From assembly GCA_913062595.1 (NCBI GenBank), contig CAJXWT010000004.1, positions 1 to 58,496 on the forward strand: 58,496 nucleotides of DNA. Reading direction: 5' to 3'. This DNA is from an uncultured Fidelibacterota bacterium (GTDB lineage Bacteria; Fidelibacterota; Marinisomatia; Marinisomatales; TCS55). The position numbers were made by a program, and so were the translations under genes. Under the pieces are notes generated by a model. The model was not told the origin of the DNA. It saw nothing but the letters and a program-made list of their open reading frames with translations, and ran no database searches. Of this stretch, positions 5,728 through 8,188 are shown in pieces. Numbering within the stretch: the stretch's first letter is position 1; each line of letters begins with the position of its first letter.

Positions 5728-5870
5728 TGAATGACACCGATCTCAAGACCGTATTCAGGTATGACGCTGGCGGCAGTGGATTTAAAAAGGCAGCTATTTT
5801 TCTTTTATTACTTGCAGGACTAATGGCTGTGTTTGCGATATATTGGTTAACCTCATTTTTAGGAGCATGA
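5727..5870 (+). CDS. small single-span membrane protein, unrecognised
   Basis: A 47-codon open frame beginning with a GTG that overlaps the stop of the FecR-barrel gene by one base and ending one base before the selW ATG. The protein has a charged head (NDTDLKTVFRYDAGGSGFKK) and one hydrophobic span of about 20 residues ending in SFLGA. Position between two genes, lack of leftover space and the clean N-in membrane topology argue that it is real. No family was recognised, and no strong ribosome binding site is visible, so translation would rely on coupling. Confidence 0.5.
   Translation: MNDTDLKTVFRYDAGGSGFKKAAIFLLLLAGLMAVFAIYWLTSFLGA
5861..5865 (+). promoter_or_regulatory. ribosome binding site of the selW-like gene
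   Basis: AGGAG lies six bases upstream of the ATG at 5872. This is one of the best Shine-Dalgarno matches in the window. It fixes the start of the selenoprotein frame and shows that the short reading frame before the TGA is really translated. Confidence 0.75.
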
Positions 5871-5871
5871 T

Positions 5872-6099
5872 ATGAAACTATCTATTGAATATTGTAACGC
5901 TTGAAACTATTTACCTAGAGCGTCCAGGATGGCCGCTGATCTACTTGAAAAATATGGTAATAACGTGACCGAGTTAACGCTCATCCCATCAAGTGATGGC
6001 GTCTACGAAGTGACTAAAAATGGTGCGTTAATATTCTCAAAGAAAGAACTGGAAAGGTTCCCAGAACTAGACGAAATAATTGATATTATCGAATCGTAA
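5872..6099 (+). CDS. selW: SelW/Rdx-family selenoprotein with in-frame TGA (Sec)
   Basis: 75 codons with an in-frame TGA at 5902-5904 (codon 11), read here as selenocysteine. The N-terminus is MKLSIEYCNA-U-NYLPRA, which matches the CxxU redox motif and following helix of the Rdx (SelW/SelT/SelH) family. Downstream DGVYEVTKNGALIFSKK and ERFPELDEI match the family's G-F/Y-E-V, 'ifsK' and 'FP' signatures to the last residue. Without TGA readthrough only a 10-residue peptide would be made, yet coding quality continues unbroken to TAA at 6097. A hairpin 3' of the TGA could be the bacterial SECIS. The protein is a small thioredoxin-fold redox protein; its partners are unknown. SelA/SelB/SelC must be encoded elsewhere. 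Confidence 0.88.
5916..5943 (+). promoter_or_regulatory. candidate bacterial SECIS element in selW
   Basis: Starting 14 bases after the TGA, AGCG (5919-5922) pairs with CGCT (5934-5937). A U:C mismatch and two further C-G pairs close an AGGAU loop (5926-5930). TAG (5916-5918) can pair with CTA (5941-5943) across a three-base bulge. The apical loop is 21 bases from the TGA and contains GG, within the spacing and loop-G pattern known for bacterial SECIS hairpins. The fold was drawn by hand and has no energy calculation. Confidence 0.55.
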
Positions 6100-7918: not shown

Positions 7919-8188
7919 GGTCGTGCAAGATGGGGAGGTAGCGGTGCCCTGTAACCTGCAACCCGCTATAGCAGGATTTAACGCCATAGAGCGGCTTGTT
8001 CCGCGTTAGGTTTACCAAGCACGTGGTGTTGACGTTTCAGCCCATTGCAATGGAGTTGCATTCAACCCCGTCAGGCCTGGAAAGGAGCAGCGGTAGGTGT
8101 TTATTTCATGTGCCGATGGATCACTGAAATTGAGCCAACGACTTTTGTGTACCTGACATCCGGGGATGTCAATCTATGGTGCACGACC
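7919..8188 (+). ncRNA. ffs: signal recognition particle RNA, large bacterial form
   Basis: About 270 bases closed by GGTCGTGC (7919-7926) pairing with GCACGACC (8181-8188). The 5' part contains the Alu-domain sequence GGGGAGGTAGCGGTGCCCTG and the CCGCTATAGCAGG segment found in Bacillus-type SRP RNA. The middle has GTGGTGTTGACGTTT. Domain IV carries GTCAGGCCTGGAAAGGAGCAGC, the Ffh-binding hairpin. It acts with Ffh in co-translational targeting to the membrane. A short reading frame across 8045-8233 is an artefact within this RNA. Confidence 0.93.

Follow-up and report, generated by a model that had tools for sequence, protein, structure and literature searches.

A SelW-like gene with an in-frame UGA and a putative SECIS hairpin, widespread in the marine phylum Neomarinimicrobiota

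A gene for a SelW-like protein of the Rdx family, with UGA as the last codon of its CxxU motif, is present in a stretch of 58,496 nucleotides (the window) that is one contig (C4) of a 2.37 Mb genome in 134 contigs from the phylum Neomarinimicrobiota (SAR406), and it is almost certainly an expressed selenoprotein gene whose UGA is decoded as selenocysteine (Sec) by means of a SECIS element. Assignment to the phylum follows from the nearest named loci, which lie in Candidatus Marinimicrobia / Neomarinimicrobiota genomes. The case is built from sequence, namely the frame, the predicted fold of its product, the Sec machinery of the genome, the conservation of the TGA and a covarying hairpin. A sequence-only reading of the window had proposed a frame of 75 codons, the eleventh being TGA, preceded by a good ribosome binding site. 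The coordinates, length, position of the TGA and CxxU motif are exactly as it claimed, and an AGGAG 6 nt before the ATG bears out the binding site (Table 1).

Table 1. Positions of the features discussed; those without a contig prefix (C3, C33, C63) are in the window
Feature	Position	Strand	Remarks
FecR-domain protein, 756 aa	3457..5727	+	ends in ..IETSFNF, aromatic as is typical for outer-membrane barrels
Single-membrane-span protein, 47 aa	5727..5870	+	GTG start, TGA stop; directly 5′ of selW
Ribosome binding site AGGAG	5861..5865	+	6 nt 5′ of selW ATG; from sequence
selW-like gene, Rdx family	5872..6099	+	75 codons + TAA; TGA read as Sec
CxxU redox motif, C8-N-A-U11	5893..5904	+	putative Sec codon TGA = 5902-5904
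Putative SECIS hairpin, AGCG-U-CC-AGGAU-GG-C-CGCU	5919..5937	+	covariation; fold -7.6 kcal/mol; within coding sequence
selA	C3:12394-13740		512 bits
selB	C3:13758-15590		370 bits; adjoins selA
tRNA-Sec (selC)	C33:48-139		66 bits, above gathering score; ARAGORN tRNA-SeC, anticodon TCA (UCA)
selD	C63:231-1157		in-frame TGA at known Sec position, GSGUACK

With TGA read as U, the translation is MKLSIEYCNAUNYLPRASRMAADLLEKYGNNVTELTLIPSSDGVYEVTKNGALIFSKKELERFPELDEIIDIIES, and the locus is the only Rdx match in a search of the whole genome, with a single TGA in it. The proposal that it encodes the complete Rdx/SelW fold is borne out by profile and by model. In hmmscan the Pfam Rdx profile (PF10262) is matched over positions 2-73 of 74 with 80.7 bits against a cut-off of 22.6 (E 8.8e-23), and the matches to NCBIfam NF041051, the SelT/SelW/SelH family (seleno)protein, and to TIGR02174 score 95.2 bits (cut-off 88) and 64.5 bits (cut-off 34.2), respectively. 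The AlphaFold2 model of the protein (pLDDT 94.9) has the thioredoxin-like SelW fold with the CxxU motif placed after the first strand (residues 2-8), and its top matches in the PDB are all SelW-like proteins (TM 0.90-0.94), with 2fa8, 2ojl, 2obk, 3dex and 2p0g superposing at an rmsd of 0.8-1.0 Å. A phmmer search with the protein also retrieves solved SelW-like proteins, the best being 2fa8 at 1e-12, and there a cysteine stands opposite U11.

Rdx matches occur in 144 of 245 Neomarinimicrobiota genomes. Wherever a copy reaches the redox position, in the phylum or in the outgroup, the codon is TGA (150/150, some of the copies being the same species from two collections, with 141 distinct 48-nt sequences); a sense codon, Cys included, stands in none of these 150 (one other than Cys would have spoken against the proposal), and the phylum yielded no Cys form. 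The count draws on 156 Rdx matches, from 119 fetched stretches (116 of them for selW) together with loci from the relatives and phylum searches, six of which are gene fragments or partial copies without the N-terminal part and so are uninformative on the redox codon. The outgroup copies, from KSB1, Anaerolineales and one further bacterium, likewise have TGA. A Lachnospiraceae locus from the relatives search (L017) was discarded as a homologue, being a chance peptide match that has no motif. At two loci of genus g31 (L089 and L103) there is a second, N-terminally truncated Rdx-like stretch some 3 kb 3′ of selW.

The loop of the putative SECIS hairpin, AGGAU (5926-5930), begins about 21 nt 3′ of the TGA. 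Counting from the T of the TGA as 0, its core consists of the pairs 20-32, 21-31, 22-30 and 23-29, which in the window are 5922-5934, 5923-5933 (a U.C mismatch), 5924-5932 and 5925-5931, and the five-base loop that they enclose is mostly AGUNU across homologues. All four core pairs are formed in 122 of 144 distinct sequences, as against 0-5 when the register is slid by 1-4 nt, and of 576 cells 554 are paired. A blind covariation scan of all column pairs ranks 20-32, 21-31 and 23-29 first to third and 22-30 sixth. In 71 sequences offsets 20 and 32 are the third positions of two fourfold-degenerate Ala codons; they are nevertheless paired in 67 of the 71, with 29.6 expected by shuffling (these statistics are without correction for shared ancestry), and since the positions are silent, constraint on the protein does not explain the pairing. 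Measured against the published bacterial SECIS model, in which the loop is N-G-G/U-N-N, the spacing 16-37 nt and the minimum free energy -7.5 kcal/mol or lower (PMC13188914), the window hairpin passes on loop, on its 21-nt spacing and on its stem (7 bp with one mismatch), and narrowly on energy. The single-sequence fold 3′ of the TGA is no more stable than that of shuffles (z 0.40), and an Rfam scan of the window gave no selenium-related RNA. The hairpin fits a bacterial SECIS element, with support mainly from covariation, and in this it strengthens the Sec reading independently of the machinery and of the constancy of the TGA.

The genome has all four genes whose presence the sequence-only reading had named as a check, selA, selB, selC and selD, and with them a complete pathway for Sec. 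Its further suggestion, that the lineage uses selenocysteine, is in keeping with this and with the detection of selA in 177 of the 245 genomes of the phylum, a distribution that contamination of a single assembly does not explain. Rdx and selA are both present in 127 genomes and both absent from 51, with Rdx alone in 17 and selA alone in 50 (Fisher p 4e-11, without ancestry correction); most of the 17 in which Rdx is present and selA was not detected are incomplete. In genus g16, whose genomes measure 0.4-1.0 Mb, Rdx and selA are both missing from every member listed.

How the UGA is used merits consideration. It could act as a regulated stop, so that mostly the 10-residue peptide is made and Sec is incorporated only under ample selenium; such regulation is, by established knowledge, a general property of decoding UGA with a SECIS element, the efficiency of which cannot be read from sequence. 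Comparison of the segment 3′ of the TGA with its counterparts points elsewhere: dN is 0.02 and dS 0.46 with the nearest relative, and 0.155 and 1.30 with a relative that is 76% identical, so that dN/dS between the window sequence and its relatives is 0.04 to 0.13. As the segment evolves as coding sequence under purifying selection, the full protein matters, and it is improbable that the short peptide is the main product. Even less probable is that a standard amino acid is inserted, whether in a recoded genome or by SECIS-independent readthrough. The frame would be open whatever TGA encodes, but TGA is an ordinary stop elsewhere, terminating 17 of the 47 long ORFs of the window, on which ground general recoding is rejected; in addition, the selW TGA falls opposite the Cys at the redox site of Rdx proteins, the genome has a tRNA-Sec (UCA) with selA, selB and selD, and the hairpin covaries. 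A nonsense-mutated pseudogene or an assembly error in a Cys-type Rdx gene, which would look alike in a single genome with an in-frame stop, is scarcely credible and is refuted by the constancy of the TGA in phylum and outgroup, the low dN/dS beyond it and the hairpin covariation also speaking against it.

Decoding of the UGA as Sec would involve a ribosome meeting it at codon 11 and SelB, carrying Sec-tRNA(UCA), binding the downstream hairpin and so inserting selenocysteine to yield a thioredoxin-like protein of 75 residues. In it Cys8 and Sec11 would form a selenenyl-sulfide redox pair. The product is most likely a small cytosolic thiol/selenol oxidoreductase, from which electrons may pass to an envelope- or peroxide-linked partner, presumably a peroxiredoxin in one family.

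The gene for the 47-aa membrane protein, which has no match in Pfam or NCBIfam, is probably on the same transcript as selW. A single-span protein of 41-58 aa is conserved just upstream of selW in much of the phylum, in the family to which the window belongs as well as in several more. Its frame ends no more than a few tens of nucleotides from the selW start, and the 37 distinct sequences aligned give the consensus KTVYRYDxGxxGFxKAAxxLxxLAxxLAVFGxxW. The gene for the FecR-domain, barrel-like protein, whose end is overlapped by the gene for the 47-aa protein, is a neighbour of selW in several families. In the class-level family f16 (e.g. L117, L128, L135, L141, L152 and L156) another membrane protein, of about 57 aa and with two spans, precedes selW. 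In family f13 the gene immediately 5′ of selW is for a peroxiredoxin with the motif TPGU, and both have TGA, making tandem selenoprotein genes (L034, L046, L061, L065, L075-L077, L080, L085, L088, L090, L092, L096, L100, L101, L114 and L140). An envelope redox relay in which the upstream protein of about 45 residues would anchor SelW, as cytosolic selenol donor, at the inner membrane, a Sec-peroxiredoxin, the operon neighbour in f13, would accept the electrons, and Sec would matter so much that lineages losing its machinery would drop the gene instead of switching to Cys, can be imagined, and we think it rather unlikely. Elsewhere in the window, between a tRNA-Ala gene and a dnaX-like gene, is a bacterial large SRP RNA (7921-8186; Rfam RF01854, 174 bits).

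SelD and a TPGU peroxiredoxin (on C1) are additional predicted selenoproteins of this genome. An AhpD-like peroxidase-related protein (TIGR01926) with CYYU, at C76:1668-1856 (L188), is a candidate. At C5:12965-13429 there is also a sequence for a secreted protein of 687 residues with SPGUPVC, in which NCBIfam finds a T9SS type A sorting tail. It belongs with others (L189-L198) to a family of secreted proteins of about 690 aa that have a redoxin domain with FF[SA]PGUPVC, and in each of 23 matches (23/23, from 22 genomes) there is one TGA within the matched region. Ten members that were read out have the TGA at the redox site and then a hairpin-forming stretch resembling AGUCCGGAGUURUCGGA. A literature search for selenoproteins exported by the type IX system found no paper. 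These redoxin proteins are possibly a new family of extracellular selenoproteins, perhaps of greater interest than selW.

The results point to selenocysteine use throughout a very abundant, uncultured marine phylum. In a 2016 survey three SAR406 single-cell genomes had an orphan selD only (PMC5029168); judging by the full Sec pathway of the present genome, they seem to be incomplete, rather than from users of a new selenium trait. Since Cys forms are completely absent from the phylum, it also offers an uncomplicated setting in which to ask why Sec persists. That SelW-like proteins of bacteria using Sec have hardly any Cys counterparts, or none, had been noted earlier by Zhang and colleagues (PMC1794560).

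SelW-like selenoproteins with CxxU have long been known from Sargasso Sea and Global Ocean Sampling (GOS) data (PMC1088965, PMC2398784), and with 427 Sec forms they were the most abundant marine selenoprotein family in the 2008 GOS survey (PMC2398784). The gene described here shares with them the family (Rdx PF10262; TIGR02174, NF041051), size, CxxU and a SECIS right after the UGA. Whereas the Sargasso and GOS sequences are mostly unassigned reads, it comes with a named phylum and its Sec machinery and without any Cys form found, and part of the SelW-like reads so predominant in marine surveys of selenoproteins probably came from Neomarinimicrobiota. The Cys-type proteins of solved structure, from Agrobacterium (2fa8), Bordetella (2ojl), Pseudomonas (2obk/2oka), Streptomyces (3dex) and Vibrio (2p0g), have the fold predicted for the window protein and are 26-36% identical to it over its full length, but their deposited chains are longer (103-108 residues versus 75), and opposite U11 there is a Cys in 2fa8 and 2ojl. 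The 2008 GOS study also had ten unassigned Prx/SelW reads, from one small clade, and raised their linkage as a question (PMC2398784). In f13 a TPGU peroxiredoxin gene is directly 5′ of selW, and by this likeness f13 Neomarinimicrobiota are a likely candidate for the source of those reads; in the window's family, by contrast, the neighbour encodes the small membrane protein and the TPGU peroxiredoxin gene is elsewhere in the genome. The selW gene of Neomarinimicrobiota is, then, not the founder of a new family; it is a lineage-wide addition to the already known SelW-like one.
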